Below, piece by piece: positions 3,001-63,678 of a stretch of 64,000 nucleotides of DNA (the stretch's first letter is position 1; each line of letters opens with the position of its first letter). The notes below the pieces were generated by a model that saw only the letters and a list, made by a program, of their open reading frames with translations, ran no database searches and was not told where the DNA came from. Both the position numbers and the translations under genes were made by a program. The DNA is from Coniochaeta sp. PMI_546 (taxonomy: Eukaryota > Ascomycota > Sordariomycetes > Coniochaetales > Coniochaetaceae), in the NCBI GenBank assembly GCA_021432605.1, contig MU271147.1, positions 1,116,001 to 1,180,000 on the forward strand. The letters run 5' to 3'.

Positions 3001-3084
3001 CAGCGACGTTTGCGACCCCGGCGGACCCTCTCGACTCTGCAGTGCCCTGTCCTGGTTCTTCTTGGACTTGAAGAGAAACGCCAT
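1..3084 (-). CDS. tea1: Tea1-like kelch-repeat cell polarity protein (3' end beyond window)
   Basis: This is the N-terminal part, about 960 residues, of a kelch-repeat polarity factor. In fission yeast and Aspergillus the family rides microtubule plus ends and marks growing cell tips. Exons are 3084-2779, 2699-2312, 2242-1960 and 1902 to beyond position 1. Introns of 79, 69 and 57 nt restore one frame. Residues 1-100 are disordered and Gln/Pro-rich. Kelch blades follow, with the diagnostic YPWSQRRL and PFPRYGAAVNS and repeated GG-x(n)-DLW/NDLW motifs. A Ser/Pro/Thr-rich linker with many TP/SP sites comes next, then a long coiled coil rich in Glu, Lys, Gln and Ala. The start is the first ATG of the frame, and MAFLFKSKK resembles family N-termini. 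The stop lies off the left edge, so full length is unknown. The kelch fold plus coiled coil makes the Tea1/TeaA/Kel1 assignment strong; which paralogue it is remains less certain. Confidence 0.92.
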
Positions 3085-5696: not shown

Positions 5697-8600
5697 ATGA
5701 CCTTCCTGCCACCTCTCTCCGCACATCAACACCACCCTCTCGACTTCCCAGGCGTCACTACCGCGCCGCGACCTCCTCAAGATACCCCAACCGAACCCGC
5801 AGCAGGCGAACCCACCCAATCTGCCACGCAAGCCGACCAACGGCACGAGAACGGTCCGCTGCGACCGAGCCCCAGAATCATGCCACGCGACGCCCCTGGC
5901 GAGCCACCAGGCAACCATCGACAGCAACACAGCTCCAATGGCACAGCCGGCTTCCATCGGTCGAACTCGGCTTCCTTCTCGAGACGGCCGTCGAGCGCGC
6001 CCAGGGCTAACGGCACCGGAGCGAATACGACCGATGATGACGAGGAAGACAACCGACTGAGCTTGAGACCGCCCAAACCGCCATTGTTTAGGTCTCAGAG
6101 CGAGTATGCGAGCCCTCACCGCAGCCCGGACGATGCCGACCATACCGACAACGAGGATTTCGAGTGGGGTGCCAGGCACGGCTTTGAGGATCATTATCAG
6201 TCGGAGGATATCATATCTCAGTTGGCTAATGTAAGTTGCTTTGTCTTGCTTTTCTAATCCCTGTTCATGTCGTTTTTGCTTTTCTGCCTTGCGTCTGGAG
6301 ATAGGGGAAGAGGATACGCATCGTGGTGGTGGATGTCATCAGGGTCCTCGGAGTGGTGGTTGTAGCCAAAAGTCCAAGTGCGCTGGGTCATTGCCCGACG
6401 TTGGAGTTTGAGCGCAAGGCTGCGAGCTAGTCGTCGACCTGCTTAGTCGGCGAGCTGCTTAGTCGGCGAGGAGGGCTCTCGTGCTCGTGCTTACCTTCGA
6501 GCCGGCTGGCTGCGTGTCTAGTGGCACTTGGCGGAGCTGGAGCTGAGGCCGTGTCGTATCGGACCCGGGTACGGACGTTGACTCGAAGGTCGGGACCCTG
6601 AAGCACTGACCGCCCTCCCGATGTGCCTGTCGAGTGTTCGCCCGGGCAACCTATCATTCTATCCTTGGGCAGGCTTTCAGGGTGCTTATGGCCACGATTG
6701 ACGGGCGTCACGAGCAGAACCCTCATTCTGTTTGGCACTATCCACACAAACAAACCAACAGAACACTCACCAAAACCCTTTCCTATCTCACAAGGCACCA
6801 TTTCCAACCCTTCCCTTTGGCTTCACACTTTCTTTACAAGACTCCTTCACACTCCTTTCTCGCTCTCTGGGTAGTGCGGTGCGCATCGTCATGTCTCCAC
6901 GCACTCCAGTACTCCTTGGTTGCGTTCTGGAGAGTCTACGGCACATCAGCAGCCCACACTCGCGTGTCTCTCTTCTCTGTCATTTCTTCCTCCTCGCTTG
7001 GCCCTCGCGGCTGTGAACAATCACAATGGCGTCCGAAGCCTTCTTTCAGATGTATGTTGACAAGAACTATCAGAACTGGTATATGTACTTCACGGATAAG
7101 CGCCATGAGTCCACCGGTAAACCCAAGTCGCCGCCATTTGAGGTCCAGGACTGGCGCATGCGTGATCGACTGAAGACGGTGTCGGCCGCCCTAGCAGTGT
7201 GCCTCAACATTGGTGTCGAGCCTCCAGATCAGCTACGCACAAACCCAGGCGCCAAGCTCGAGGCGTGGAACGACCCCACCGTCCCTCCGGTCGCCAAAGC
7301 CCTAGAGAATATAGGAAACTCTCTTCAAGCGCAGTACGAGACACTCGCGATAAGGACGCGGTACAAGAAGTATCTCGATCCGTCGATTGAGGAGACCAAG
7401 AAGTTCTGCATGTCTTTGCGCCGAAATGCCAAGGACGAGAGAGTCCTGCTTCACTACAACGGCCATGGCGTTCCCAAGCCAACTGCTTCTGGCGAAATCT
7501 GGGTGTTCAACAAGAAGTACACCCAGTACATCCCGGTATCGCTCTATGATCTGCAGAGCTGGCTCCAAGCTCCCACCATCTTCGTCTGGGACTGCTCTGA
7601 GGCCGGCAATATCCTCAACAACTACCACCGTTTCGTCGATAAACACGAAAAGGAGGAGGAGGAGGCTCTCGAGAGGGACCCAAACTACGCGAAGAACAGC
7701 TTTCGACCATACATCCATCTCGCGGCTTGCAATGCCAAGGAGAATCTGCCGACCAACCCTCAACTCCCCGCTGATCTCTTCACCTGTTGCCTGACAACAC
7801 CTATCGAGATGGCCCTGTGGTTCTTCGTCCTGCAGAATCCACTCAACTCCACACTCACCCCTGAGCGCGCCAAGAGGCTCCCAGGCCGACTCCAAGAGCG
7901 TAGGACGCCATTGGGAGAGCTCAACTGGATCTTCACGGCCATCACGGATACCATCGCATGGACCACACTGCCTCGGGATCAGTTCAGAAAATACTTCAGG
8001 CAGGACCTAATGGTCGCTGCGCTTTTCCGCAACTTCCTACTCGCCCAGCGGATCATGCCTGTGTACAACTGCCATCCACAGTCGTTCCCAGTGCTGCCCG
8101 ATACCAGCAGACACCCTCTGTGGGACAGTTGGGATCTGGCAGTGGACATGGCCCTGTCTCAGCTACCAGAGCTGGAGAAGAAGGAGCGGGATGGTACCGA
8201 CTACGAATACCAGAACTCGACATTCTTCACCGAACAACTGACCGCCTTCGAGATCTATCTCACCAGAGGCGACGCGCTGGCCAAGAAGGTGCCTGAGCAG
8301 CTGCCAGTCGTGCTCCAGGTCCTCCTTAGTCAGCAGCACCGAGTGCGTGCTCTCATACTACTGGGCCGCTTCCTCGACCTCGGACCGTGGGCCGTTCAGC
8401 TTGCCCTTAGCATAGGCATCTTCCCCTACGTGCTGAAGCTCCTACAGTCCGCAGCACAAGAACTGAAACCCATCATGGTCTTCATCTGGACACGCGTCCT
8501 AGCGGTGGACATAACCTGCCAGCAGGACCTCATCAAGGACAGCGGCTATAACTACTTCGCCTCCATCCTGAAGCCTCACGAGGGTCTTCCGGTCGTCGAC

Positions 8601-10980
8601 GTCGAGGAGCACAAGGCCATGTGCGCCTTCATTCTCGCCATGCTCTGCAAAGGGTATAAGCCGGGCCAGATCGTGTGCAATAGCACTGACATCATGACGT
8701 ATTGCCTGGCACTGGTCGTTAAGAGCGACAACCCCTTACTTAGGCAGTGGGCGGCGCTCTGCATCAGCCAGCTCTGGCAAGACCTACCCGAGGGGAAATG
8801 GAGGGGCATCCGCGAGAATGCCCATCTGAAGCTCGCCTCACTCGTAAAGGACACGCAGGTCGAGGTCAGGGCGGCCGTGGCTCATGCCCTGACCACATTC
8901 CTCGGCATTCCCGACCTCACGGACGAGGTGTCGCGCATCGAAGAAGGCGTGGCCTGGAGGATGCTGGAACTGGCCAACGACGGCAGCCCGGTTGTGCGCA
9001 AGGAGCTTCTGGTGTTCCTCTCTCACTTCGTTCTGCGCTACGAATCACGATTCGTCGTCGTGTCTTACGAGCAGCTGGTGGAAGAGAAGGAGTATCTCAT
9101 GCACCCGCCTGCGGAGGATGGAACTGAGCACAAGATGGGTCTGCACTACGCCCGGCCGGAGAACCGCGAGAAGGACGGAAGCATCAAGCCGTCGGCCTAT
9201 GGGGTCGGTCATAACTCGGTCTATGCGGCATGCTGGAAGTATTTGAACATACTGAGCGTGGATCCGCATCCCGAGGTCCAGAGGGATGCGACCATGGTTG
9301 TCGATTACGTGCACAACGCCCTCTTCAATTCCGAGGTCGGTGCTCAAGCTACGCTTCTGGCTGAAGAAATCCTCAGGCGCGCTAGAAAGGTGTCTCGAGG
9401 CGACATGAGCCAGAGGAGCAGCCTTCACGGCACGAACACGGCGGCCGCCCAGCCGCTGCCCTCACCCGGACTGTTGAAGCGGACTGCCAGCTACCTGTTT
9501 GGACCCCTGCTTACCGGGCCGAACGGCTCGTCCAGCACGACCACACCGCCGGGGTCACCCGGACTGCAGAAGTCTCAGTCGCTGCGGAGCAAACGCCCCA
9601 TGGCCGAGACTGCCGCGGCAGAGAAGGCGAGCGATCCCGCAGCACCGCCGGCGAACTACCACGTGGCGAACGAACCCCTCTCGCACGGCTACGAGGAGCG
9701 CAGCATGACAGAGATACCGACTCTGCCACTGCAGAGCACGTTCCTGGAGTGGTCGATCGAGTACTTCCGCGAGCCGCAGATGAAGGCTCAAGAGGCCGAG
9801 GAACCGGGCAGCGAGGAGTACAACGAGCGGCTGTGGCGGCGGTCGCGCAACGAGGGGGTGCTCCGCGAGACGCAGCCGCAGAAGCTGCACGCCGGCACGC
9901 ACAAGTGGACCAACGCGGTCGGGTTCATCAACAACGGAGCGCAGCCTACGCAGATGACGTTCCACCAGTTCGAGAACCACGTGGCGGTGGCGGACGACGG
10001 CAACACGGTCCGGGTGTGGGACTGGGCCAAGACGCAGCCCAAGAGCCGCTTCTCCAACGGCAACCCGGAGGGGTCCAAGATCGCCGACATCAAGTTCATC
10101 AACGAGGACGACCAGGCGCTCCTGATGACGGGCTCGACGGACGGGGTGATCCGCATCTACCGCAACTACGACGACGACCACAAGGTGGAGCTCGCCTCGG
10201 CTTGGCGGGCGCTGACGCAGATGGTGCCATCGAACTATAGCTCAGGGATGGTATTCGACTGGCAGCAGGTCAACGGGCAGGTGCTGGTTGCGGGGGACGA
10301 GCGGGTGATACGGATCTGGAACGCGGGCCACGAGGCGTGCTCGCATGAGATACCGGCGCGCAGCGGCAGCTGCGTGACGTCGCTGACGTCGGACCAGATG
10401 ACGGGCAACATCTTCGTGGCCGGGTTCGGGGACGGGGCGGTGCGGGTGTACGACACGCGGTGCAGGCTGCAGGAGACCATGGTGCGCAAGTGGAAGGACG
10501 AGGAGCGGCAGTGGGTGCGGTCGGTGCACATGCAGCGCGGCGGGCAGCGGGAGCTGGTGACGGCGAGCCGGAACGGGGTGGTGCGCATGTGGGATATCCG
10601 GTTGCAGGAGCCGCTTAAGAAGTTTTCCGTTACGAGGGACGTCCTGCGGACGGCGAGCACGCACGAGCATCTCCCGGTGTTTGCAGTGTGAGTGTTTTCT
10701 TTTATTCCCCCTCTCGGCTCGGAGACACAATATGCTAACCTTTGAGTTCTACAGCGGCACCTCTCACCACGCGGTCAAGGTATTCAACTTCGACGGGGTC
10801 GAGCTCTCTCGCGTTGAGCCGTACTATAGCTTCCTCAACCAGACGAAGGGCACGCCCATCACGTCGACGGCCTTCCACCCGCACCGCATGATGCTCGGCT
10901 GCGCGGCCAAGGGCGACTACCACGTCAACATCTTTGCGTGCGGGGACGAGAAGGTTCCGCAGGCCGTCGGCTCGTTCTGA
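5697..10980 (+). CDS. kog1: Kog1 / Raptor, TORC1 scaffold subunit
   Basis: Kog1 (Raptor, Mip1) presents substrates to the TOR kinase in TORC1, the nutrient-sensing growth controller on the vacuole. Exons are 5697-6230, 7074-10687 and 10755-10980, giving 1457 aa. The 843-nt first intron is phase 0 and joins SQLAN to NWYMYFTDKRHE; the second is 67 nt. Residues 1-175 are disordered and acidic at the end. The Raptor N-terminal caspase-like domain follows at about 180-400, with HYNGHGVPKP and FVWDCSEAGN. HEAT-type helices occupy about 520-850, then a Ser-rich linker, then seven WD40 blades from about 1100 to the C-terminus. Length and order match the family. An alternative start at 7026, inside the first intron, would give a 1295-aa form that keeps every conserved domain. 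Many antisense ORFs here are GC-driven shadows. Confidence 0.96.
6231..7073 (+). promoter_or_regulatory. Long first intron of kog1 with a probable internal promoter and alternative first exon
   Basis: The intron runs from GTAAGT at 6231 to CAG at 7073. At 843 nt it is over ten times the length of most introns in this window. Its last 400 nt read like a fungal leader, with C/A- and C/T-rich tracts at about 6730-7015 and then ATCACAATGGCG, an excellent initiation context, at 7026. That ATG opens 16 codons (MASEAFFQMYVDKNYQ) that run in frame straight through the acceptor into exon 2. A transcript starting inside the intron would therefore encode a short Kog1 without the disordered N-terminal region. 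Confidence 0.5.
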
Positions 10981-13207: not shown

Positions 13208-14181
13208 TGTTTGCTTTTGGAGAGCGAGTGGGATGGAGGAGAGGAAGTGGAAGAAGAGAGGGTAGTTGGAGGAGGAGAGGATGGACAAGAGTCCTGCGCG
13301 ATGTCCTCTGGGAAGTTCAGTCCACAACCAGGGCGACGAGGTTCGGAGAAAAAGATGAGGAACGGTAACTGACAGTACCTGAGCTGATGGAATGAGCTCA
13401 TGGAGGGTCCTTATCGCGCATTTTGTAGGTGGGGTTAGTGGTCAGATCTAGAACTCAGTCAGATCTGCACGCCAGATCTACAGCGGCGGATCGACGCTAA
13501 GAGGATCGATGGAGATGGCACTGGATGGATACATGAGGCTTTCTATAGGCCTGTCGATACGTGTCATGGCTTGGGTATCACATACCACTGTAGGGCTTCA
13601 GAAGACGAGCATCGTAGGAATAGCCAACTACACGTTGTATCATCACATAGAGAGAACCACCTCGACTGGACAACAGACCGCGAATTACCCCTGTTCCGTG
13701 CTTTGAACCGTGAATAAAACCAGTACCAGTACCAAAAACCATTCCGCCCAATGCCCCCCCTTTACGAACTCATATATGCCCCTGCCAATCTCAGTATGTC
13801 TCGATGCCGTCGATACATGGTATCCATTGCCCTCCTCGCGATGTTCACTCAACCCCAGATACCGTCGAGGACTCGGGAAAGAAAAGACTTAGACTAGACT
13901 TGGGAGGTATAAAACCAGACATTAGAACTACCAACTTTGCCTGCCTGGACCGCCTTGATTTGATGAGCATGGAAAGTAAACAGAAGAACAAAGAATGCGA
14001 GTGGTTATACACCCCAACCGACGAATGACCGTTCTGTAGTCAACCGGTGATGCAAAACCGACCCTTGACCCCCTTTCTCCCCCTCTCCTCTTGCCCTCTT
14101 ACCCTCCTGTCCTCCATCATTTCCTCCTCCAGCTGGTAACAAGACATCACTCGTCCTTCAGCTTCAACGCACGACAAGACA
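13208..14181. other. Intergenic region, alo1 promoter side
   Basis: These 974 bp separate the stop of the RD-repeat protein gene from the start of the lactone oxidase gene; both are on the minus strand. The part nearest alo1 (13208-13400) is C/T-rich on the minus strand, as fungal leaders often are. No credible ORF, RNA gene or repeat was seen in the remainder. Confidence 0.5.
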
Positions 14182-17106
14182 TCACTCCTCCTCCTCCTCA
14201 ATAGGCGCCGGCGTCCGCCTCTCATTCCGTCTCTTCGGCCTCCTCGTCCTGCTACTCGAGATATTACTCGCACTATCATCCGGCGCGATCTCAAAGTCGT
14301 CCCCTCCCCAATCACTCTCGCTCGCCAAGCTATCCGCATCCGGCATCCAGAACGGCCTGTCCCCACCCCCCTGGCCCATCTCATCCAGTATCCCCGTGAA
14401 CAACCCCCTCCTCTGCTGCAGGCTCATCTGCAGCCCCGCCCCCCTCAGCCTCAGCGCATTCCTCACCTGCTCCGCCCGCTGGTGCAGCAGCTCGAACGCG
14501 TCCTCCAGCGCCTCCATGCCCGCGAATATCTCCCTCTCCACCTCCGCCAGCGCCGCGATCTCCGTCTCCTCGTCGTTGCTCACCGCCGGCCTCCCGCCCG
14601 CGCCCGGGAAAGCAGAACTAGCGGCGCTCACCCCGGACACGAACGAGGCCGGCGTCGCCCCGCGCGAGTACGGCGTCGGGCCCCGGCTCATCATCATCCC
14701 CGCGAAACTGCTCATGCTCTGGTTCGTCCCGGGCCGACTGATCCCATACCCCGCCGCGGCAGCCGGACTCATGATCCTGCCCGGCAGTCCCCCGCCAGGA
14801 GAGGCCGAAGCAGGAAAGAACCCGCTGGCCGGCGTGGCGCCCCGCGACGGACCATCGGCAGTCGGCGTAAGCACATCGTCCCCGTCGGCACCACTCCACA
14901 AGAACCCATCAAACCGGCCCGACACCAAGATCTCCCACTCCGACGGGTTAATCTCAGATATCGTGTGCAGCAAGTCGTGCATGTGCGGATGCTTGACCAA
15001 GAACGCCACCGTCTCCGCATCGCGCGGCGCGGTCTTCAGCCGGTAGAGCCTCTGCAGCGCCAGGCCCGAGCGGACCACAAAGTCGTTCCGCCTGTTGTGC
15101 TTCCCCACGGGAGTCGGCGCCCGGACCACGGGGGCCACCTCCCTGGTCCCCTTGAGCAGGGCGTTGAAAAGCGGCCTCTGCTCCCCGTCCAGGCTGGTCA
15201 GGATGGCGAAGTTGAGCGTCTCGTCGTCCACCTCCGACGGTAAAGGGGCCGGGCCGTCCCCCATGTTGTTCATCCACACGTCGACGGCCTTGCGCACCCG
15301 CTTGGACTGCCGGAGGTAGTGCTCGCGGAACTCCTCGGCGATGTCCGGGTCCATCTTGACGGGCGAGGCGGGGCGGGCGGGCAGCTCGGCTATCCCCTCC
15401 GTGGCGGACTTGGTCATGGAGCCCAGGTCGAAGGGGGGCCAGGAGGGGATCTCGATGCGCCCGCTCACGCGCTCCAGGACCTCGCCCCACCCGAGCCCGC
15501 GGTGGGGGTCGCCCGAGTTCTCGCACATGACGCACGAGCACCCCTCGGGGGACAGGTCGCGGGAGAAGACGTTCTCGAGCCTGTCGAGCAGGCGCCGGGC
15601 GACGGTGCGGTGGCCGGTGGCGACGGCCACGGAGCCGTGGCCTTGCAGGACGGTCTGGTACTGGTCGAGGAGGTTGAAGAAGGGCGCGAAGAGGGTCTCG
15701 GCGCCGCGGAGGGGTGGGTTGGAGGGCCGCGTGCCGTTGAGCCGCGGTATGACGGCCAGGAAGTTCTTGGGTATCGGTTGCGGGAGACCGCCGTTTTGCA
15801 TGAGGTAGTCGACCCGGGGGACGTCGGCTATGCTTAGTGGGGGAGGTGGGGGTGGGGGTGGTGGTGGCGGAGGGGGCGGCAGACCGGGACCGGGACGGAA
15901 GCCGTTGGCTGGCGTGGCTGAGGGGGTGATTTCGCTGCGAGGCTCGCTCGGTGCCTCGAAGCTGACGTGCGGGGGGTACTTCTGGTCGGGCAGGATGTAG
16001 GGCTGCGGCACGCCGACTACATGGACTGGTGTATGTGGTGAGTCGTCTTGTCCCGACTCCGAAGCCGAGTCGACAATCACGACAGCCGCGGCTGGTGGCC
16101 CGCCGCCTGGGGGACGCCGGCGTGCTCTTTGCCTCGGTGCATCTCCTGGCCCTGCTGGTCTGGGCGGCACCTCTATCACGGAGTCGTTGTCCTTGACTGG
16201 CTCGACGTACGGCGTCTTCTGCCTCGGCGGTAGGACGAATGTTGCCTGGCTGGACGATTTGGAGACGCCGGATTTGTCGTCCCTCGCTGTCGAGGTGGAC
16301 CGCGAGACCGACGATCTCGAGACCCAGGATGTCGTCCTCGACCTCGGTCTTTCGGCGCCGACTCTCGACGGCACTGGTGTGTCTGGGTCATCCTGCCATT
16401 TCGTAATTACCGGCGTTTCCTCCTGTTGCTGTCCTTGCTCGCTCCCCTGGTCCTTGGAGAGATCCGTCTCGGGCGGTGTAGGCGGCCGGGTGTCCTTTTG
16501 GGCGTCCTTTCGCGGCTTCGGAGAGGCCTTCCTGCTCGACGGCGAGTCGGCCGACTTGGTCCTCCGCATCGTGGCGCTCCCTAGGTCCGTAGCCACGGGG
16601 GTGAGCGGGTCGGTGCCGCGGCCGGTGGGAGCGGAGACATCCTCTTTACTCGCGACGTATTCCTTGCTGTGTGCCTTGCTGAAGTTCGGGTAGGGTATGC
16701 TGATGCGCTCTCTGCTGCCGTCCAGGCTCGTCCTTGCCAGCTCCGGGACCAGGTCGGCCATGGAGGAGGAGCGCTTCTCTTTTCTGTCGCTCCTCTCGCT
16801 GCCGTCCTTCTCCCTGTCTCTGTCCTTGTCTTTCGATGTGCGGTGTCGGCGGTGGGAGTGCGAGGTCGAGTCGCTGTCTGTAGGTCGTAGCTTGGATGAT
16901 CGCGAGGACCGGTGGCGGTGGGTGGATGAGGAGCTCTCCTTGTCCCGTTCCCTAACCTTGTCCTTGTCTCGATCTCGGTCTCTGTCCTTGTCTCTGTCTC
17001 TGTCTTTTTCTCGGTCTCTCCTCTCCTTGTCGGATTTGCTGCTTCGGACTTTCTTCTCTCGCGGGCGGTCGTCGAGGACGTCAACATCCCGATCTTGAGC
17101 AGGCAT
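14182..17106 (-). CDS. Conserved-looking disordered protein with RD repeats and a C-terminal domain, function unknown
   Basis: This is a single exon of 974 aa. Residues 1-110 are extremely charged, with RD/KD dipeptide repeats (REKDRDRDKDRDRDRDKD), His/Arg/Ser blocks and SK motifs, like the low-complexity tails of RNA-processing proteins. The middle (110-410) is Ser/Pro/Thr-rich with many TP and SP sites. A run of about fifteen prolines lies near residue 420. After this the sequence becomes compact and probably folded (about 440-780). It includes a Cys cluster CSCVMC, a helix-rich stretch beginning LFAPFFNLLDQYQTVLQ and an IGP/WEILVSGRFDGFLWS-type segment. The end is Gly/Ser-rich, then a coiled segment, then an acidic tail of five Glu. 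I do not recognise the family with confidence. Fungal proteins of this architecture have sometimes been labelled as DNA glycosylases, but no glycosylase motif is visible here. A nuclear role is only a guess. Confidence 0.85.
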   Translation of the reverse strand: MPAQDRDVDVLDDRPREKKVRSSKSDKERRDREKDRDRDKDRDRDRDKDKVRERDKESSSSTHRHRSSRSSKLRPTDSDSTSHSHRRHRTSKDKDRDREKDGSERSDRKEKRSSSMADLVPELARTSLDGSRERISIPYPNFSKAHSKEYVASKEDVSAPTGRGTDPLTPVATDLGSATMRRTKSADSPSSRKASPKPRKDAQKDTRPPTPPETDLSKDQGSEQGQQQEETPVITKWQDDPDTPVPSRVGAERPRSRTTSWVSRSSVSRSTSTARDDKSGVSKSSSQATFVLPPRQKTPYVEPVKDNDSVIEVPPRPAGPGDAPRQRARRRPPGGGPPAAAVVIVDSASESGQDDSPHTPVHVVGVPQPYILPDQKYPPHVSFEAPSEPRSEITPSATPANGFRPGPGLPPPPPPPPPPPPPPLSIADVPRVDYLMQNGGLPQPIPKNFLAVIPRLNGTRPSNPPLRGAETLFAPFFNLLDQYQTVLQGHGSVAVATGHRTVARRLLDRLENVFSRDLSPEGCSCVMCENSGDPHRGLGWGEVLERVSGRIEIPSWPPFDLGSMTKSATEGIAELPARPASPVKMDPDIAEEFREHYLRQSKRVRKAVDVWMNNMGDGPAPLPSEVDDETLNFAILTSLDGEQRPLFNALLKGTREVAPVVRAPTPVGKHNRRNDFVVRSGLALQRLYRLKTAPRDAETVAFLVKHPHMHDLLHTISEINPSEWEILVSGRFDGFLWSGADGDDVLTPTADGPSRGATPASGFFPASASPGGGLPGRIMSPAAAAGYGISRPGTNQSMSSFAGMMMSRGPTPYSRGATPASFVSGVSAASSAFPGAGGRPAVSNDEETEIAALAEVEREIFAGMEALEDAFELLHQRAEQVRNALRLRGAGLQMSLQQRRGLFTGILDEMGQGGGDRPFWMPDADSLASESDWGGDDFEIAPDDSASNISSSRTRRPKRRNERRTPAPIEEEEE

Positions 17107-51680: not shown

Positions 51681-52909
51681 CTAGTCTCCAGCAAACCACG
51701 GGTGCAGCAACGCCTCCCGCGCCGTGATTCTCCGCAAAGGATCCATGCAGGTCATCTTGCAGACGAGATCCCTGAACTGAGGGTCTACCTGCTGCCACCT
51801 GCCGAAGGGCAGCCTAGGGTCCTCCTCGCTGAAAGTACAGAGTAAGTCCTTGAGGCGCTTGACAAACGGATTATCGTCTCCCCCGTGATAAGCAATGAAG
51901 CCCTCGAAATCTTCCATGTCGCTGGCGAAGAAGGACAGGTGGCGCCGGAGTATCAGCTCCGCCTGCTCCTCGGGGGAAGCACGGTTCGCCTCGTCTGAAA
52001 AGAACACCATTCTACCCGTCCACGCGAATATTGCCTGAGTATCTGCCAGTTAACACTTGCATACTTGTGGTTTCTGCTCATGGAAGGACATGTTTCTGCT
52101 CATGGAAGAACTTGACTCACCACGATGGCAAATGAATAGATGTCTGATGGGGTGTTCTGGATGCCCCGCGCCCAAGCCTCCGGGCTTCTCCAGAAGTGAT
52201 TTCCCGACAAGCGGTCTGTGAGACCCTTGGCACCGGGCGGAAGTATCACCGCAGCTTCCAGGTCGGTGATCTGGACATTGCACCATCCAAAATCGCCATT
52301 GTGTTGTTTGAACGAATCCATCATGATGTTTGTCGGTTTGATATCTGTGAAATATGTCAGCATGCATTTTAATGATTATGTGAGAGACGGACGGACCGGT
52401 GTGGATGATGTGCTTGTCATGTAGATCAGCGAGGCCGGTAAGAGCATCTTTTATGATGACCTTTTTGGCGATGGGAGAGAGAGCTGCAGTATCGATGTGG
52501 AGCAGTCCCTTCTCAAGATAGGGGAAGACCAACATATGCCGCTCAGGAATGCTATCCACGGCTGTTCGTACATGGGGAGAGTGCTCGACGTGCTTCTGAA
52601 GCGAGATGATGTAGTCAAAGTCACCTGGGATGATGTCTTTGAGGATGAACTGCTTCCCCTCGTGTCTGCAATTGGGAAGTAGTTAGGATTTTCCGTTTCC
52701 GGCCTCTGGCCATGCACCGGACAGGTCTCGAGGACAGGTTCAACCTACGTCGCGCGGTATACACACCAGATCCTTCCAGCGGCAGGTCGCTCGGAAAGCA
52801 CTTCGTCAATCACATAGCACTTGTCCAGGGATGACTTGAGTTGTAATCCCCTGGGCAAGGGCTGGTCTCCTATGATGGACGTAGAAGTGGGGCTGGAGAC
52901 TGAAGACAT
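51681..52909 (-). CDS. Divergent protein kinase-like protein, possible pseudokinase
   Basis: Exons 52909-52749, 52665-52397, 52344-52121 and 52034-51681 give 335 aa in a closed frame. An in-frame ATG at 53104 would add 65 residues (Arg/Ser-rich, mitochondrial-targeting-like) and make 400. A kinase fold is visible: LKDIIPGDFDY around the VAIK position, a catalytic-loop motif HIIHTDIKPTNIMMD, then ITDLEAAV where DFG is expected, FWRSPEAW as APE, and DIYSFAIV with RRITAREALLHPWF at the end. The HRD Arg is replaced by Thr and DFG reads DLE, while the catalytic Asp and the metal-binding Asp positions keep an acidic residue. This resembles an expanded, fast-evolving group of fungal kinases carrying an HTDIKPDN motif. 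Activity is doubtful but not excluded. Confidence 0.82.
52070..52110. repeat. 22-bp tandem duplication within the last intron of the kinase-like gene
   Basis: GTTTCTGCTCATGGAAG occurs at 52070 and again at 52092 with a period of 22 bp. It lies wholly inside intron 3 (52120-52035) and so lengthens the intron without affecting the protein. Confidence 0.85.
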
Positions 52910-55212: not shown

Positions 55213-58200
55213 TCATCGCATCACCAACCTCGAGTCCGTCCCACCACCACCACCACCACCACCACTCGGCGCACCCTCGGCACTAGTCAACGGCCGACTC
55301 AGCTGCAAAAACCCCTCCACCGCCGTATAAGGCGGCTTCTCGAACCTAGGCCGCTCATCCACCTTGTCCAGACCAAGCGGCATGTACCTCGGCGTCCCCA
55401 CCTCCCCAGCCCCTCCGCCAGACGTCGTCCCGGGGGGATAAGGCTGCAACCAGCGCCAATCCGAGCCCCTCAGCGCCGGCAGGCCGATCTTCCCCGCCAC
55501 GCTGGCGCTGGCCACATCGTCCTTGTCGGGCGTGAGCTCGAACTTGTCCGAGAACCCCGGCACGCCTCCCGTCAGCAGCACGGGGCCCGCGTGCACGAAG
55601 GCCGTCATCTTGGCCAGGGCGGCCTCGACGGCCCAGTGGGGCGGCTTGGCGGCGACGGTGGGCAGGGTAGCGCTGAAGGCGTGGATGGATGTGAAGGGGT
55701 CGACGAGGGCGGAGACGGGCTGGAGGGCGGCGTTGCGGAGCTGGGTTTGCTTGGCTGGGTCGACGGGGGTGTAGGACGGGGGGGTGGTGGGTTGGAGCTC
55801 GTCTGGGCTGATGAGGAAGGGGGACAGGGAGAGGGTGGAGGGTGTGATGGGGACGAGGTTGGGGGCGATTTTGGGGGAGGGCCAGAAGGTGTGGAGGGTG
55901 GTGTAGTCGAAGCTTGACTCTAGGGGGGGTGTTGGCGCGTTGTCAGACTTGGTTGGTGCTGGGGTGGGTTTCCAGAAGCCGAGGAGGCCGTCGTAGCTGC
56001 GTTGTTGATCGCCCAGCTGCAAGGGGAAGGAGTATTGTTTAGGTGGTGGCGCTGCTGCGGCTGCTGCGGGATCTGTGGCACCGGCTGCAAGCTGCTGTTG
56101 CTTTGAGTCCGGAGGCAGAAGCGTGTATGGGTCTGCGCCAGAGACGTTGGACTGGTTCTCCAGCGGATACGCAGCCAGCTCTAAAGACATGGCCAAGTTG
56201 ACCAGAGCCAGAGGCCGGCCGACGACACTGCTGACATATTGTGCATAGCTGGAGTTGGCTGGTTGCAGTTGGCCGAAGGACAGGGATATCATGTCGTAGA
56301 AGGCGCGGAGATACCCTGGGCTGCTCTCCGCTACCAGAGCATCGATGACCAGGTCCAACTGTCTGAACTGCGGCGGCGTTGAGGGCCGGCTGTAAGGCGT
56401 CCACGGCGGCGATGCCACGACGTCATGAGGGCCCCCGAACCGCAGTTCCCGGTAGAAGGTGCCGTCAGAGAGAAAGAACTGCATGCCGTAGTCGGCGTAG
56501 TTCATCAGTACCCAACCGTAGATTGGTGTCTCCCAGTCGTTCATCGGCATCCACTGAGTCGGAGTGTCGGGGTCGGGCTTGCAGAAGACCAGGTTGACTC
56601 GGCCGGGCTGGTTGATTGAGGGAGGGATCTGGGCGTACTCGCACTCCGGCACGGGGAGGTCGTATGTGACGGTGTTCGGGTATACTGGGCTGGGATCCGG
56701 TTTCGACGGCGGCGGCGGTGGTGGTGGAGGTGGCGGGGGCAGTTTGTCTAGCGTCTGGCAGGCGTATACATCCGAGAGACAAATAGGAGTGTGAATCCTG
56801 CCTGTTTGCTCTGGTGAGGGGTCTAGAACACAGATTGCGCGACCGAACTTGTCGAGGATGTTTATCTGTGTGAAGCGTAACTGTCCATGCGATGCCGGCT
56901 TGAACGGACTGAGCCCAGAGACATCCAGCTGGACCGAATTACCATACGGCGTGAGGCTTGTATGTTGACCCACAATGCCTCCCAAGATGTCGTTGGCTGG
57001 GTCCCCCATGCCGATTGGCAGCCCTGCCTCGAGAGCCGCGGCGGTGGCGGTTACTTGTTCGCCTCTCGGCCTTTGGGTCGGCTTGATGTGAGTCCCAGCG
57101 ACGCGTGTGGTCAGATGAGGCGTAAGGCCGGCCAGCGTGGAAGAAAGAAATGGAAGGAGGTTGAAGTTGTTCTGGTCTTGAAGAAATTTGATTTCACATG
57201 GCTTCAGCGGAATGTTGGACCCCAGGTTCGTCAGCAACTGGCCCACGGCGGTGGCGAGTGACAGTGTCGGCTGGGGCAGGATGAGGCAACGACCCGAGAC
57301 TGGCCTGCGGTCGTTGTCAAGCTGTGACACGACCACCCCGTCGCGGATGCCCCATCGGACCGTGTCGTCTCTCTTGTCCAAAGAAAAGCTGTCGTACGGA
57401 ATGTGATAGTATTCTGCCTGCCACTCGATGAAAAGGGGGGCCCATGGCTGCACCGTCCACCTGTCACGCCACAGGTTGGGATCCTCAATCTGGTCGTGGT
57501 AAAGCGGGAGCACACAGTTCTTGCTGGAGACAGTGATCTTCTCTGCCCCATAGAGTATGCGGAACTCGGTCAGTAAACCCACGACGGCAGTCTGGTGTTG
57601 TTTAGGTACTTTTGCGCCTATACCTGTTGCAAATGTATCGTAGGCTGTACCCCAGTCCGGAGCTGTACCAGATGTGATATCTGTGACTTTGACAGTCTGG
57701 GTATCGACTCGAATGGCCAGTGGTGACAAGTAGTCGTGCGGCCAACCGGCCTGCACGCCGCCGACGAGCAGAGTAGGGTCTTTCCGCTGAGAGTAGGGGG
57801 TGCGAGTGCCTTTCTTTGCTGCTTCCAGGGGATGTTGCGTGGCCATTTTCGTGATAGTAGTCTCTAACGTGGCATTGCGATCGTGTAGATTCGTCCAGCG
57901 TTGTGCAGTGGTCTGGACTTTTGTCTTCAGGTCATCGCTTGGCGTGAGACCTCCAGATACAACCTTCCACCAGATGGAGAACAAGTCCCAAGACAGCCGG
58001 TCCATGACTCTTGCGTTGTTGTCGAAAGCGTCCTGCAAGCCATTCAGCTCGGCTAACGCTGTACCCTGGTCGGCCGTCGGCGTGAAGGTCGGCGCAGTGC
58101 CATCGGTAGGTCCCAAGTGCCATTGTGAACCGCCATCCCAGTGCTGGAAGGAGTAACTCTCGAGGAGGTCACCCGCTTGCATATTGGCGTCAACGCCTTC

Positions 58201-59466
58201 ATCCTGGGCCAGAATCTGGGTCTGAATGGCAATCAGGTCAGTCTCTAGTCTTTTCAGAGCGCCTGTATCGTCGTCCACATGTGCCTTGACCAGTGTCATC
58301 AACGCATCCGCGGCCGAGGTGCCAACGGCGATGGGGGAGGTTTCGGCAACCATTGCGGCCGCCTTCTGGGCTGTGCCGTCCGGCACTGCGTCCGTGAGGG
58401 ACCACTGGACGTCGTACATGGCACCGTGACAAAGAACATCGGCCGACGTGTCGTCTGCCTGCCAGGTGCTCGCGTCGCCTATGGAGGCGTCCTTCATCGT
58501 CATGGCTAGATTGCCCATACGGTCGCCTCGTTTGGTATTCTGGCTGGTGATGTGGAAAGGGTTGTAAGTGGGGTGGGCGTGCCATCCTATCACGTAGTAG
58601 CTGGCAGCGGCAGCGCTGATCTTGTTGAGGCTTCCGTTAGTGTCCAGGTAAGTCATCTCGTCTATCATGCTGAAGACGTTGCTGTTGTGTGGCTGGTAAT
58701 CCGCAAACAGGTGGTTTGATGAGTACAACAGGGACATGTCCACGGACACCCGATTGGTGTCTTCCTGCCAGACATCCACGGAGGTCTTGTGGCCGACGAA
58801 GACCTCGGCTTGCTGCTCGATATTGGAGTTTGAGTTTTCGCGTTCGGCCTTGACAAACGGCGAGAAGTCGGTCTGCAAATCAACCTCGCGAGTCCCGTCG
58901 TCGGTCTTGAGCGGGACGTCCTCGAGAATGGAGAGACGGTCGCTGTCGAGGACCCAACCCTGGAACTGCAGCTTGGCCTTTTCGGCATCTGACACTGCCG
59001 TCGGAGTGCGGAGTGTGTCGAGGTCCAGGTAACGCACGATGAGCCAGCGAGTGGGAACTGGACGAAAGTCGGGCGCGCTGTAGTCGGGTTGGGCGCTGGG
59101 ACCGATGGGCTGGTAGCCCTGTCTCTCCCTCTGCTCACGAGAGGTCGCCGTCGAGGTTCCTGCGGCTCCCATGCGGTATGCTCGGGGCATGACCCATGAT
59201 ACGTACACACCTTGACGATTCACTCTCCTTTGGCCGGTACCGAGGTCGGTAAGACGCTGGTTGCGTTCAATAGGGGACGTGTAGTGAAGGTCTGTGAAGG
59301 GCAGTACGTCGTTCTGGACCATGCTCTCGTCGAGGCGAAGAAAAGTGTAGTTTGGCTGGGCGATCGGAGCGACCTTCACCTGCTCGTCTGCGGCCACTTT
59401 TTCGTTCATGACCAGACAGTCCAGTTTCATAGGCACACATGCAATCGAGGGTAGGGACGCCATCAT
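55213..59466 (-). CDS. Giant intronless protein, 1417 aa, unknown function (left member of divergent pair)
   Basis: This is one uninterrupted exon. There is no signal peptide or transmembrane helix, so the protein is probably soluble. Residues 1-900 look folded and beta-rich, with many Trp. Landmarks are WVMPRAYRMG (about 90), WLIVRYLDLDTL (about 140), FQGWVLDSDRLSILEDVP (about 165), YYVIGWHAHPTYNP (about 290), VLCHGAMYDVQW (about 345), WPHDYLSPLAIRV (about 580) and QPWAPLFIEWQAEYYHIPYD (about 680). A predicted helical pair lies at about 395-560. An 11-proline run near 920 is a hinge. The C-terminal third includes DWETPIYGWVLMNYADYGMQ and ends in a run of nine Gly. The start has two adjacent ATGs (59466 and 59463). 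I know no fungal family like this; the motif style resembles large uncharacterised bacterial proteins, from memory only. It is divergent from the 1132-aa gene with an 813-bp gap. Confidence 0.88.
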   Translation of the reverse strand: MMASLPSIACVPMKLDCLVMNEKVAADEQVKVAPIAQPNYTFLRLDESMVQNDVLPFTDLHYTSPIERNQRLTDLGTGQRRVNRQGVYVSWVMPRAYRMGAAGTSTATSREQRERQGYQPIGPSAQPDYSAPDFRPVPTRWLIVRYLDLDTLRTPTAVSDAEKAKLQFQGWVLDSDRLSILEDVPLKTDDGTREVDLQTDFSPFVKAERENSNSNIEQQAEVFVGHKTSVDVWQEDTNRVSVDMSLLYSSNHLFADYQPHNSNVFSMIDEMTYLDTNGSLNKISAAAASYYVIGWHAHPTYNPFHITSQNTKRGDRMGNLAMTMKDASIGDASTWQADDTSADVLCHGAMYDVQWSLTDAVPDGTAQKAAAMVAETSPIAVGTSAADALMTLVKAHVDDDTGALKRLETDLIAIQTQILAQDEGVDANMQAGDLLESYSFQHWDGGSQWHLGPTDGTAPTFTPTADQGTALAELNGLQDAFDNNARVMDRLSWDLFSIWWKVVSGGLTPSDDLKTKVQTTAQRWTNLHDRNATLETTITKMATQHPLEAAKKGTRTPYSQRKDPTLLVGGVQAGWPHDYLSPLAIRVDTQTVKVTDITSGTAPDWGTAYDTFATGIGAKVPKQHQTAVVGLLTEFRILYGAEKITVSSKNCVLPLYHDQIEDPNLWRDRWTVQPWAPLFIEWQAEYYHIPYDSFSLDKRDDTVRWGIRDGVVVSQLDNDRRPVSGRCLILPQPTLSLATAVGQLLTNLGSNIPLKPCEIKFLQDQNNFNLLPFLSSTLAGLTPHLTTRVAGTHIKPTQRPRGEQVTATAAALEAGLPIGMGDPANDILGGIVGQHTSLTPYGNSVQLDVSGLSPFKPASHGQLRFTQINILDKFGRAICVLDPSPEQTGRIHTPICLSDVYACQTLDKLPPPPPPPPPPPSKPDPSPVYPNTVTYDLPVPECEYAQIPPSINQPGRVNLVFCKPDPDTPTQWMPMNDWETPIYGWVLMNYADYGMQFFLSDGTFYRELRFGGPHDVVASPPWTPYSRPSTPPQFRQLDLVIDALVAESSPGYLRAFYDMISLSFGQLQPANSSYAQYVSSVVGRPLALVNLAMSLELAAYPLENQSNVSGADPYTLLPPDSKQQQLAAGATDPAAAAAAPPPKQYSFPLQLGDQQRSYDGLLGFWKPTPAPTKSDNAPTPPLESSFDYTTLHTFWPSPKIAPNLVPITPSTLSLSPFLISPDELQPTTPPSYTPVDPAKQTQLRNAALQPVSALVDPFTSIHAFSATLPTVAAKPPHWAVEAALAKMTAFVHAGPVLLTGGVPGFSDKFELTPDKDDVASASVAGKIGLPALRGSDWRWLQPYPPGTTSGGGAGEVGTPRYMPLGLDKVDERPRFEKPPYTAVEGFLQLSRPLTSAEGAPSGGGGGGGGTDSRLVMR

Positions 59467-59505
59467 GAGCTTGTTGGCGGGACTGATGAACTTTGGTAGA
59501 GTCGC

Positions 59506-59527
59506 TTTTCTTTCTTTCTTTCTTTTT
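59506..59527. repeat. TTTC-rich microsatellite
   Basis: A short run of CTTT units sits about 40 bp upstream of the 1417-aa gene start, probably in its leader. Confidence 0.85.
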
Positions 59528-59771
59528 ATTCTTCTTCGGCTATAGCATACATGTGTTCAAGGTGAGTTGACACGATGAAAGACGTGCGAGGCCAATTGAA
59601 ACCGATCATCACTCAGGACCAAGTTCAGGTCTTCTGTGTGCCGCATTCAATCAGACCATGCCCGGTAACATGAAACCTCAGGCTGCTATCATTAGAGCCA
59701 TGTGCTCGAGCTAATAGTGAGCATTCCGAGTTTGAATGCATACCGAAAGCAAAAGGTGGCTGCATTGGCAG

Positions 59772-59822
59772 GTGATGCTGATGCTGATGCTGATACTGGT
59801 GCTGGTGCTGGTGCTTGTGCTG
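59772..59822. repeat. Hexamer/trinucleotide repeat GCTGAT-GCTGGT
   Basis: About eight imperfect GCTGAT then GCTGGT units lie in the middle of the bidirectional promoter region. Confidence 0.9.
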
Positions 59823-60279
59823 GGTGTCTCAGAGGTCCAACAGTGTTGTGTAACTGCCGTGCCAGCGGTCTCGACCGCCCCGATTATGCGCTAGTGATGA
59901 TTAACGTGCATCGCCTGTGCATTAGTGCCACAGTAAGGTCGGCCTGATGGACACTGTGACAACTGCACCACTGATATGTTCGATGTGACAGGTGGACCAC
60001 TGATATGTGACAAAGTAAGGTAGTCTTTTGACTTTGGACGTGGCTTGGCTTGTGAGGTGTCTGTCTGGCTTGCTTGTGGACAGCACAACTCAGTAAGATG
60101 GGTGAAGATATGAGGGAGAAGATGAGGGGGGAGATTGACGAGGAAACACAACCATCTCGTCAGACTATCACTCACCCAACCGACGATCGTCAAGCTCAGA
60201 GTCCAAGTCCTCATCACCAACACACACAACACGTCGTCTTACCATATCTACACTTGCCTCATGTCAACCTGGCCACGCC

Positions 60280-63200
60280 ATGTCTTCCAACGACAAGTTC
60301 AAGAACGCCCCGAGGGTCTTGACCCTGAATGCGGCATGGCAAGTCTGGCTCAAGGCGAAACCAAACAAGTTTGACTCCGTCATCCGCAGGCTCAAGGAGG
60401 TTGGAGATGACCCTGAGCCTTCGGACCTGCCAACGGGTTTCGAGCTTCTTCACTCGTTCTATGCGCCCGGCCTGATGGCGTCTTCCGAGGTTCCAATCAA
60501 TACGATCAAGATCACCCAGACTATTGACCCAAAGGACCCAGCTGACAAGCCGCTCACGCTCGACTCCGCGCAGGAGTTCGTCGTCATTGCACCGCAGTTC
60601 AGCTTACCGGCCGGCGACATCCACAGCGTGTATCCTCCTCAAGGCAGCGCTGCGGCTGCCGCCATCTTGCCTCACGTAGTCTTCAATGACCCTCATCTCC
60701 CGTGGGAACGGTGGGTGATTGACCCCGCCAAGGAGAAGGAGCCTAAGAGGAACAAGACCCCATGGATGGCCCTCATGGCTTTCACCGCTGACGAGATTCT
60801 CTTGGACCCGAAGGAGCTCGCAGGGCCTGGCAGGATCTTCGCTTCCGACGTCCAGCAGAACCCGACCCTTAGCATTACCCAGAAGGTTGGGGATCTGACG
60901 GCCATCCGGCCAGAGAATGCAAAGAACTGTGTGCCTCAGGGGACAGACCCAACCACCACTGCCGACTTCGTCTTCATGACGCCTCAGGCGTTCAACAATT
61001 ATTTCGCCTCGGACCCCCCCAAGACCGGTGTCCTCGCTACCCAGACACAGCCGGACCTGAGTCCGTATCGGTTCACCGCTCACTCGAGAGCCATCAACAC
61101 AGCCGGCATGGCCGATGCAGGCACGCAGGACGACGGACTCTACAGCGTGGTGGTGTCCCGGCGCTGTGGCGTATGGGACAACAAGGTTCCAGTCCCAATC
61201 TACGTCCATCTAGTTTCTATCGACGAAGCCGAGAAACTGGCCCCTTGGCCAATGGACGGGACCAAGCACGTTGCCCTCTGCTCCCTCTACAGTTGGACGT
61301 ACCAGTGCCTGCCGCCGGAGTCGGTCGACATTCACGATGCACTCAAGGAACTAGGGGCAACTGCAGCCATGTTGGGCCCTCCCGCTGCTCTTTCCAAACA
61401 ATGGAAAGCCGACAGTGATCCGATCAAGAAGTTGCTTGGTCAGCGGTTGCAAGATGGGTTCACGCTCTCCCGCTATCTTCTGCAGGATGGAGAGGAGACA
61501 GCAGCTTTCTATCGCGGTCCGCTTACACCGACTGCTGTTGACTGGCCACTGACATCGACATTCCCAAAGCAGTCCACCTACTCAACAGACCTGCAAATTC
61601 TGGACAGCGCATTGGGCATCATGGACATCACATATAGCACCGCGTGGCAGCTCGGACGAGTTCTCGGGCTGGCGGACCAGGCTTTCTTCACCGCTTTAAG
61701 CCGCCTACGCACAGCCATCCACACTGTAGCCCTCGACAAGGCTAAGAAGGCGATTCTTGCAGACGCGCATCGGACGGGCCGCCAAGTTGCTGCGAGTCTG
61801 ATGGCATCATTTGAGACACTCCGCCATCTGACGGCAACCCGGGAAATACACCCGAGGAAGAGGTGGAACCGTCCACGGCCTCCGCCGCCAGACCTGTCGC
61901 TGTGGTCTTCTGAAATGCAGGCCGCTTTTGCTATAGCGGTCAGTGACACTGTTGCCGACTTCGCCAGCAGCCCGGACGGTGGATACTATAACGAACTCAA
62001 CCGCTCTGCCAATGCCGACTACGCGATAGTGCTGAAGTGGGTTCTCGACCGGAAGTTCCTCTTTGGTATCCCGGCGCATTACCTGATTCCTGACCCGTCT
62101 CATCTTCCGGTTGAGTCCCTTCGCTTCTTCCAGATAGATCAGAATTGGGTTGATGCTCTTGTGGATGGTGCTCTCAGTCTTGCCAACCATACCGACCAAG
62201 CCGAAGACCCGGCTAGGAACGCGATTCAGGGCGCCATAAAGTCCTTCATCGACACGCCAGACCCGGTGCTTGGCTATAAGCCACAGATACCCACATACGG
62301 TTTTTTATTGAGGAGCAACATAGTCACGCAATTTCCTGATCTTCATGTTGATATTCCTTTCACGTCGAAAGATACACCCAAGGCCACTCTCCTTCGCCAT
62401 GAAAACATAGATCAAGGTGTGATGCTGGTGCTCATCGACCGTCTTCCTGGCGACAAGGAGCTGACAGGGCTGGCTCTGACGCAACCACCGCACCAGCAGC
62501 GCTTTGCCGCCGCCGCCACGGTCGGCATCGAACCTGGTGCCAAGCCCCCCGTTCTTACGCCGACCTTTGAAGTCGAACATATGCCCGTGTTCACAATCTC
62601 TAACCCTCCCAGTGGCGATATTGGCCAAAATTGCGGCCCAAAAGTCACGTTTGTTCAGGGGGGCACTTACGACAACCCTCTCTTTGACTTTGAGACGAGA
62701 CTGATCAACATCGACAACTTCGCCCAGCACGTGTTGCACAATCTGCAGCAGTATATGCCCAAGACGCCAGTTCCGGAATTCACCGACACTGTGGCAACAG
62801 CCGCTATGATGGCCATTCAACTCAACGATCCTGTCTACAGGGTCAACATCACATTTCCTGGCATCCCGGCACCACCATCGGCAAAGCCAGACACGCCGCC
62901 GACGTTTGCGGTCACGCACAGAAGTATCAAGACATCTGCGACGTGGAAGTATGGTATAGCAGCACATTATGCGGACTGGATAGCATCCCAGGGCACATCC
63001 CATGTCAAGCCCCAGGGGCTTGCAGGTGGCCATGTCCCTCGGACAATATCGACGGCTGAAGCTCGTTCTCGCCCAAGAAATGCGCCTCCGCCGCATTATC
63101 GAACGATACATTTCAAAAGATTACCACTGGTGGCTTTTACTGACGATCCACCGGCCGACAAACCCAAATTCTCTTACGGAATGTGGCCTGTCGGGGCTGT

Positions 63201-63678
63201 GACGGGGAATGTGGGATCCGACCCTCCACCCATTCCAATCACGAAGACGCTGCAGGACCTGGTAATCTCAATCCAACTGCCTCCGGACCAGCGCGAGGTC
63301 GGCAATTTCTTTCTATCGAAAATCGTCGTGGTCATCCCCTACGGCGAACCGAACAATCCTGCGGGACGCACCAACCTATTCAAGAGCTATCGAGGCATCG
63401 GCCCGACAATGCTGAGCAACGTTCGGTTCAACGTCCACACCCAGTACGATAGTGATGTTGACGGGCCACTGATGAAGCTGAGCATCATTCCGAGGCGGGT
63501 CTCCGGGGTCATCAGCATCAAGCTCATCAACGAGATGAGCATCTTGCTTCCTGAGGTGGAGGTGAACGCGTATACGAAGCCTGGGCTTTCCGTCATGTGT
63601 CAGATGTGGGAGTGGTATACCTTTCAGCCCGACCAAGGATTCAGCTCCCCACTGCAAGTGTATTTAGACATCAAATAA
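60280..63678 (+). CDS. Giant intronless protein, 1132 aa, unknown function (right member of divergent pair)
   Basis: This is one uninterrupted exon starting at CGCCATGTCTTCC. There is no signal peptide or membrane segment. The N-terminal 430 residues are mixed alpha/beta with ELLHSFYAPGLMASSEVPIN (about 50), DEAEKLAPWPMDGTKHVALC (about 310) and LSRYLLQDGEETAAFYRGPL (about 400). A helical central part follows, with TYSTAWQLGRVLGLADQAFF (about 450) and a conserved-looking IPAHYLIPD/LPVESLRFFQIDQNWVDAL block at about 600-630. The C-terminal 450 residues are beta-rich, ending in MWEWYTFQPDQGFSSPLQVY. There is no recognisable catalytic motif. The WVDALVDGALSLAN stretch reminds me of large uncharacterised bacterial proteins, which is unverified recollection. 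Divergent pairing with the 1417-aa gene, similar lack of introns and similar composition suggest the two proteins work together. Confidence 0.88.
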   Translation: MSSNDKFKNAPRVLTLNAAWQVWLKAKPNKFDSVIRRLKEVGDDPEPSDLPTGFELLHSFYAPGLMASSEVPINTIKITQTIDPKDPADKPLTLDSAQEFVVIAPQFSLPAGDIHSVYPPQGSAAAAAILPHVVFNDPHLPWERWVIDPAKEKEPKRNKTPWMALMAFTADEILLDPKELAGPGRIFASDVQQNPTLSITQKVGDLTAIRPENAKNCVPQGTDPTTTADFVFMTPQAFNNYFASDPPKTGVLATQTQPDLSPYRFTAHSRAINTAGMADAGTQDDGLYSVVVSRRCGVWDNKVPVPIYVHLVSIDEAEKLAPWPMDGTKHVALCSLYSWTYQCLPPESVDIHDALKELGATAAMLGPPAALSKQWKADSDPIKKLLGQRLQDGFTLSRYLLQDGEETAAFYRGPLTPTAVDWPLTSTFPKQSTYSTDLQILDSALGIMDITYSTAWQLGRVLGLADQAFFTALSRLRTAIHTVALDKAKKAILADAHRTGRQVAASLMASFETLRHLTATREIHPRKRWNRPRPPPPDLSLWSSEMQAAFAIAVSDTVADFASSPDGGYYNELNRSANADYAIVLKWVLDRKFLFGIPAHYLIPDPSHLPVESLRFFQIDQNWVDALVDGALSLANHTDQAEDPARNAIQGAIKSFIDTPDPVLGYKPQIPTYGFLLRSNIVTQFPDLHVDIPFTSKDTPKATLLRHENIDQGVMLVLIDRLPGDKELTGLALTQPPHQQRFAAAATVGIEPGAKPPVLTPTFEVEHMPVFTISNPPSGDIGQNCGPKVTFVQGGTYDNPLFDFETRLINIDNFAQHVLHNLQQYMPKTPVPEFTDTVATAAMMAIQLNDPVYRVNITFPGIPAPPSAKPDTPPTFAVTHRSIKTSATWKYGIAAHYADWIASQGTSHVKPQGLAGGHVPRTISTAEARSRPRNAPPPHYRTIHFKRLPLVAFTDDPPADKPKFSYGMWPVGAVTGNVGSDPPPIPITKTLQDLVISIQLPPDQREVGNFFLSKIVVVIPYGEPNNPAGRTNLFKSYRGIGPTMLSNVRFNVHTQYDSDVDGPLMKLSIIPRRVSGVISIKLINEMSILLPEVEVNAYTKPGLSVMCQMWEWYTFQPDQGFSSPLQVYLDIK

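Follow-up and report, generated by a model that had tools for sequence, protein, structure and literature searches.

In extracellular contractile injection systems (eCIS), tail fibres combine a fixed anchor with a variable tip and include Peptidase_S74 and collar domains, as described in PMC12923769. A second point of reference for the genes considered here is the family DUF6603; our literature search on DUF6603, PF20248 and IPR046538 found no paper, with subscription journals and preprints outside its scope. Polymorphic toxin and conflict systems with metallo-beta-lactamase (MBL)-fold effectors are a further kind for comparison. We examined two large genes of the fungus Coniochaeta sp. PMI_546, A (55213–59466, minus strand, 1417 amino acids) and B (60280–63678, plus strand, 1132 amino acids), in a 64,000-nucleotide stretch of DNA that we call the window. 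By sequence comparison, A and B are fungal members of two protein families that form one operon in bacteria, where they follow a gene for a DUF6603 (PF20248) protein. The window differs from these operons in that A and B stand alone and divergent with no DUF6603 gene found, and fungal B has an extra C-terminal part.

Each gene is a single exon whose frame runs from ATG to stop without a break, and the two face away from each other across an 813-bp intergenic region (59467–60279) that carries the 5' ends of both. A sequence-only reading of this DNA had described precisely this arrangement, and its coordinates proved exact. It had further proposed that the products lack a membrane helix and any motif of a known fungal enzyme or scaffold, and both proposals held: 19-residue Kyte-Doolittle windows peaked at 1.39 for A (residue 1081) and at 1.20 for B (residue 1077), with no membrane-helix-like stretch in either protein, and neither matched Pfam, NCBIfam or PDB sequences even at E 10. 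PHROGs returned one chance-level match for A (E 0.29). The A product is Trp-rich. Fungal A could be aligned to bacterial proteins over residues ~10–1390 and fungal B over residues ~55–860, without any intron-like insert being seen, which fits the single-exon structure. Because of this homology we regard both frames as real genes.

The bacterial relatives were found in two collections. In PLSDB plasmids, tblastn gave best E values of 1e-25 for A and 2e-32 for B; A was present in 8 records (three of Streptomyces clavuligerus, one of another Streptomyces sp., two of Embleya and two of Paenibacillus) and B in 9, with B beside A in 8/8 of the A records. The ninth B record, from Pseudomonas (locus L007), was a weak match (E 0.09) with no A, B or D there, D being the DUF6603 gene. 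Scanning of GTDB species genomes with the A alignment gave 171 relatives, the best 80 of which were kept; the scan set out from a pair of short peptide patterns, with the fungal protein used for confirmation, and so misses relatives that lack them. Together with 7 plasmid loci this made 87, and L007 was set aside to leave 86 loci, which are not 86 independent events because many are close kin. Homologues share ~20–30% identity with the fungal proteins over most of their length, the best values in the tree alignments being 27% for A and 30% for B. They come from Actinomycetota, Bacillota, Bacteroidota, Chlorobiota, Myxococcota, Planctomycetota and Pseudomonadota as well as SAR324. Both fungal proteins resemble the bacterial families over most of their length and in their conserved motifs. 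The sequence-only reading had suggested an undescribed system akin to large bacterial proteins that are uncharacterised and have neighbouring genes, and this was borne out.

The bacterial gene order is D-B-A, with products listed as hypothetical where they are annotated. The 86 loci were selected for the presence of A, and in every one of them B immediately precedes it on the same strand. In the 80 loci whose coordinates could be used, the median distance from B to A is 6.5 bp, and 78/80 fall between −60 and 150 bp. D precedes B in 80/86 loci; it is missing from L003 and from five loci whose sequence starts within or just before B (L026, L027, L042, L050 and L052). The fungal genes are adjacent as in 86/86 bacterial loci, the exception being L092, elsewhere among the bacterial loci, and their divergent layout is specific to the fungal locus because the bacterial pair is head-to-tail. 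On the earlier question whether the genes stay adjacent and divergent in bacteria, adjacency was confirmed and divergence was not. The idea of a two-protein system likewise stood as to the pair and fell as to the number, since the DUF6603 protein and usually a variable-tip protein, E, belong to the system too. The window shows no operon in which a DUF6603 gene leads A and B on one strand, and neither D nor E was found within its 64 kb (two bacterial D proteins by tblastn, best E 0.29).

An additional gene, M, encodes an MBL-like hydrolase; 13 loci have it ahead of D, and in L008 the two genes are fused. As flanks were short, this count of 14/86 loci is a lower bound. In L008, a gammaproteobacterial metagenome-assembled genome (MAG), the M-D fusion (2–5080) and a B-E fusion (5077–9939) are each a gap-free frame, so that three genes (M-D, B-E and A) stand in place of five. 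Among 27 recurrent neighbouring open reading frames, the 25 Pfam families listed (of 35) were regulators, transposases, kinases and metabolic or housekeeping enzymes, so no further conserved partner was seen; the frames come from scripted calling, and antisense frames may make up many of the recurrent ones. Inserted domains were detected in A and B proteins (TIG in 3, F5/8C in 3 and CBM96 in 1 of 38 scanned, picked mostly by length). The long B proteins of L040 (Nonomuraea) and L041 (a Sphingorhabdus MAG) are 47% identical across phyla and have repeats ahead of their C-terminal end, where Pfam recognises TIG in L041 and two other members; we attribute their length to these TIG-like repeats and not to an E-type domain.

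D occurs in 12/396 Actinomycetota genomes. A 19-residue window above 1.6 was present in 43/82 D proteins, compared with 15/87 A and 9/87 B proteins; in the A proteins of L046 and L069 the most hydrophobic window lies at residue 5 (1.92 and 1.86). Several observations concern D itself. Nine loci of a divergent DUF6603 branch (L094, L097, L101 and L104–L109) have no detectable A, B or E, some of them on short contigs; L094 and L097, which belong to a further set of D loci from known hosts, carry only D. The D frames of L093 (2842–12528, 3229 amino acids) and L102 (3595–13434, 3280 amino acids) begin with ~2100 residues that match no Pfam family. Streptomyces olivoreticuli (L030, L031 and L098; G001:C1 74420, 91743, 8716612 and 8733827) has a pair of D genes mirrored at the opposite chromosome end, and because end distances are equal and scores identical, these genes seem to lie in terminal inverted repeats.

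The protein E, usually encoded by one or more genes that come after A, was found in 77/86 loci, downstream of A in 74; in the others it is fused to B (L008), lies upstream (L012) or sits across an assembly gap (L016). Five of the 9 loci without E (L019, L035, L039, L050 and L051) end less than 250 bp past A. Its N-terminus is kept and its C-terminus changes. No Pfam family matched the N-terminal domain, and the matches in the 76 of 110 E-profile matches that were scanned were F5/8C (four) and Collar, PLAT, Peptidase_S74, beta-propeller, Bactofilin and FapA (one each). PHROGs tail-fibre, collar and baseplate-wedge profiles matched the C-terminal parts of some members, a likeness to phage tail fibres; a few tips thus resemble tail fibres or are of a kind that binds glycans. 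For A and B no homologue was found in phage records or IMG/VR, and a phage origin of A and B was rejected on that ground. Three candidate links to E were also discarded. In L016, what looks like a fusion of A with E runs across a gap in the assembly (N run 13553–14021) and was not counted, E-profile matches inside A of L001, L045 and L056 were read as a common discoidin-type domain and not as E, and the extension of fungal B, considered as an E domain in view of the B-E fusion of L008, gave an i-E of 0.089 with the E profile (two-sequence search) and an hhalign P of 0.06.

Tip exchange was quantified in 123 locus pairs with A identity of at least 0.6. These pairs draw on 68 loci, each represented by its first usable E, and leave out E candidates that overlap A as well as L008 and L016. 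Median identities were 0.71 for A, 0.72 for B, 0.70 for D and 0.63 for E residues 1–250, compared with 0.34 for E beyond residue 270, and the tip was at least 0.2 below the N-terminal part in 86/123 pairs. When only the 33 pairs with A identity of at least 0.8 were considered, the medians were 0.85 (A), 0.83 (B), 0.82 (D), 0.79 (E 1–250) and 0.34 (tip). L004 and L061, for instance, are 0.89, 0.86 and 0.92 identical in A, B and D and 0.92 in the N-terminal part of E, with a tip identity of 0.35. The tip therefore usually changes while the remainder of the operon travels together.

Conservation was assessed at columns conserved in at least 90% of bacterial rows, using alignments that cover 73/86 loci for A and 77/86 for B. 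Fungal A is identical at 90/114 such columns and fungal B at 52/73. Trp, Pro, Gly or Leu occupies 73 of the 114 conserved A columns and there are few candidates for catalysis, which suggests, at the level of sequence, a structural or binding role for these columns. A model of bacterial A (L048, 1151 amino acids, 67 rows) had a predicted local distance difference test score (pLDDT) of 87.0 and a predicted template modelling score (pTM) of 0.82. The model of fungal B (70 rows) scored lower (pLDDT 67.5, pTM 0.68), with 602/1132 residues at 70 or above and values below 50 at residues 866–876, 880–1069 and 1071–1132. In the structural check proposed by the sequence-only reading, Foldseek found no PDB match at E≤0.001 for either model (best value 0.66 with bacterial A, 0.75 with fungal B) and, for bacterial A, none among viral models at that threshold (best 0.31). 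Relative to solved structures and to Foldseek, A and B may thus each have a new fold, bearing in mind that local matches can be masked when the query is long and of mixed domains. The idea that A and B are paralogues of each other is not supported (hhalign probability 0.5%).

As to origin, trees were built by a quick method with Shimodaira-Hasegawa-like approximate likelihood ratio test (SH-aLRT) support, from 73 bacterial loci for A and 77 for B, L008 not being among the B rows. Fungal A sits on a branch of 2.69 beside L008 (support 76), a position flagged as long branches meeting, and fungal B on a branch of 2.34 near L040 and L041 (support 51). Because of the wide bacterial diversity, the full operons in bacteria and the intronless fungal genes, transfer from a bacterium to a fungus is the likeliest direction, the event being old or the donor unsampled, and the fungal pair is probably held by such an old transfer. 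The transfer hypothesis of the sequence-only reading was therefore upheld in the bacterial relatedness of the pair, and its direction is most likely but not proven, given the very long fungal branches and the lack of a close donor. A literature search on intronless, divergently transcribed bacteria-to-fungi transfers, with subscription journals and preprints again outside its scope, found none, and a wider one brought up papers on eCIS and conflict systems. Going from the head-to-tail B-A pair of bacteria to the divergent A-B pair of the fungus would take the inversion of one gene.

The homology of A and B and the operon are firm; the functions of A, B, D and E we infer. The reading that we favour, at slightly under an even chance, is that the two proteins serve as scaffold in a machine for recognition or antagonism that has not been described before and whose tips can be exchanged; the fungus would hold at least this pair of its genes. 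A would bind B, and together they would make up the invariant scaffold of a large assembly that acts outside the producing cell or on its surface. E would dock on this scaffold by its conserved N-terminal domain, an anchor role analogous to that of the anchor domain in eCIS tail fibres, and its swappable C-terminal tip would bind targets such as glycans, lipids or proteins. D, long, with many hydrophobic stretches and, from its sequence, apparently beta-rich, is likely to be the part that contacts membrane or lipid. The task of the whole would be cell recognition leading to attachment or antagonism. The gap-free B-E and M-D fusions of L008 count for physical association of the components. In the distant past a fungal ancestor would have taken up B and A, as neighbours, from a bacterial donor, after which the head-to-tail pair would have become a divergent pair with separate promoters and B would have gained its extension.

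A number of results weigh against this picture. Four of the loci without E cannot be put down to sequence ending at A, as L002, L003 and L029 extend 9–15 kb more and L086 1.3 kb more. Few E tips match Pfam, with no family in more than 4/76. Tip identity reaches at least 0.6 in 3/123 pairs, and 8 pairs match no less well in the tip than in the N-terminal part; moreover, fewer than 100 tip columns were aligned in 66 pairs, and in the 57 pairs with at least 100 the medians move closer together (N-terminal part 0.62, tip 0.40). The operon is also not invariably complete around D. After an even draw of Actinomycetota, 11 D loci from 11/12 D-bearing genomes were examined: both A and B were present in 3, a weak B at a contig end in 1 and neither gene in 7, several being on short contigs. 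The divergent DUF6603 branch occurs without detectable A or B. In L092 (2181–13052), A comes ahead of D and B, and there is none after B. The A and B proteins do not resemble each other, the fungal branches are long and weakly placed with A and B placements that disagree, and no export gene was identified nearby, signal peptides not having been searched for.

One alternative, which we think unlikely, is that D, B and A form an accessory conflict or defence module that works inside the cell against phages and plasmids, with M as effector and E as a sensor of variable phage ligands. The patchy distribution just seen for D among Actinomycetota fits this, as does the siting of loci on large plasmids and at the mirrored chromosome ends of one Streptomyces. 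The M protein of L056 resembles the PADLOC models LmuA, RTasMBL and Avs1a (E 2e-07 to 0.0015), and the region 5–9 kb upstream of D in L004 contains a CHAT gene and a conflict gene of the CATRA type. More broadly, the bacterial loci share with polymorphic toxin and conflict systems variable C-terminal ends, patchy spread and an occasional MBL-like partner. However, PADLOC had no match for six proteins (fungal A and B, and A, B, part of D, and E of L048), M is present in only 14/86 loci with limited flanks, and the recognised E tips are binding modules, not nucleases; no toxin or immunity genes were recognised. In the conflict-system paper PMC7159879, the sole passage matching five search terms is about another system.

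An adhesion complex of the cell surface or extracellular matrix, serving multicellular growth without antagonism, is similarly improbable to us; the fungal pair would then act in hyphal adhesion or wall organisation. Many of the hosts, such as Streptomyces, Frankia, Nonomuraea, Hyalangium and Chitinophaga, are filamentous or social. TIG, F5/8C, CBM96 and PLAT modules, which are typical of surface proteins, are all present. On the other hand, the phage collar and S74 modules and the exchange of tips look more like the evolution of a target range, and fungal A and B have no membrane-helix-like stretch.

We give still less credence, and regard as quite doubtful, a non-contractile relative of eCIS or tailocins in which A and B would take the place of the baseplate. 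To our knowledge, A, B and D have no counterpart in eCIS. A CIS_tube match was obtained in 28/44 host genomes searched, a figure for which there is no background rate to compare, and a Paenibacillus polymyxa plasmid has a gene for phage baseplate V (L002:1–1004) some 9 kb ahead of D. The anchor-plus-variable-tip plan of E is shared with eCIS fibres, and single E members carry Peptidase_S74 or collar domains as those fibres do in PMC12923769. This likeness of bacterial E is one of plan only, and no fibre of this kind was seen in the window; the N-terminal domain of E matched no Pfam family. CIS_tube and D share a contig in just 7/46 tube places and are never less than 87 kb apart there, the other 39/46 being on other contigs and little informative where contigs are short. 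No CIS_tube, sheath or baseplate gene was met as part of the locus (sheath and baseplate were not searched genome-wide), none of sheath, tube and baseplate was among the 25 listed (of 35) neighbour families, and A has no viral fold match. Linkage of D-B-A to eCIS was accordingly not found, either on shared contigs or among the listed neighbour families.

Bacterial contamination or misassembly, under which the genes would not be fungal, draws on the bacterial nature of the homologues found and the position of the pair at the window's end, and is scarcely credible given that no sequence in the collections searched is more than 30% identical, that the divergent layout is unlike all 86 bacterial loci, that the G+C content of the pair (0.60 and 0.56) follows the window whereas bacterial A genes stand at ~0.70–0.74 (top rows listed and median), and that the stretch is continuous with genes of fungal type. 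These neighbours, identified by Pfam, are a TRP channel (PF06011, which we take to be a fungal family), a D-arabinono-1,4-lactone oxidase, Raptor_N and a one-frame ATP-sulfurylase/APS kinase, and because of them we call the neighbourhood fungal. Codon usage was dropped as proof of fungal residence: A and B correlate with window genes at 0.87 and 0.85, but bacterial A genes reach a median of 0.90 against the same reference and so the measure does not discriminate.

Some further features of the window deserve mention. A GATGCT/GGTGCT repeat (59774–59815) lies inside the divergent promoter region of A and B. The C-terminal extension of B, residues 866–1132 (62875–63675, plus strand), aligns to no bacterial row and was modelled with low confidence. 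The minus strand carries a pair of abutting frames at 51681–52682. One of them partially matches the protein-kinase family PF00069 (E 1.2e-05, under the family cut-off); they are perhaps an intron-bearing kinase gene or a decayed one. A 974-codon open frame on the minus strand (14182–17106) has no Pfam match.

Taken in its widest form, the reading that we favour is of a multi-phylum recognition machine composed of new-fold A and B, DUF6603 and swappable fibre-like tips, whose scaffold pair at least one fungus captured and kept under strong selection; we advance it tentatively, as a possibility that stops just short of the halfway mark. A near-constant gene order over at least seven phyla, combined with two core proteins of no recognised fold and with tips that vary as phage receptor-binding proteins do, strongly points to a device for dealing with other cells that has so far escaped notice. 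Judged from the comparisons above, a bacterial multi-protein machine for which we found no description appears to have a fungal counterpart. The function of the operon is directly testable in laboratory Streptomyces, and the bacterial E tips could supply binding modules. With the core pair in the fungus, a multi-protein module would have passed, still linked, into a eukaryote, which is a rare kind of transfer; if the reading is true, fungi may field a bacterial-type targeting device of a new kind.

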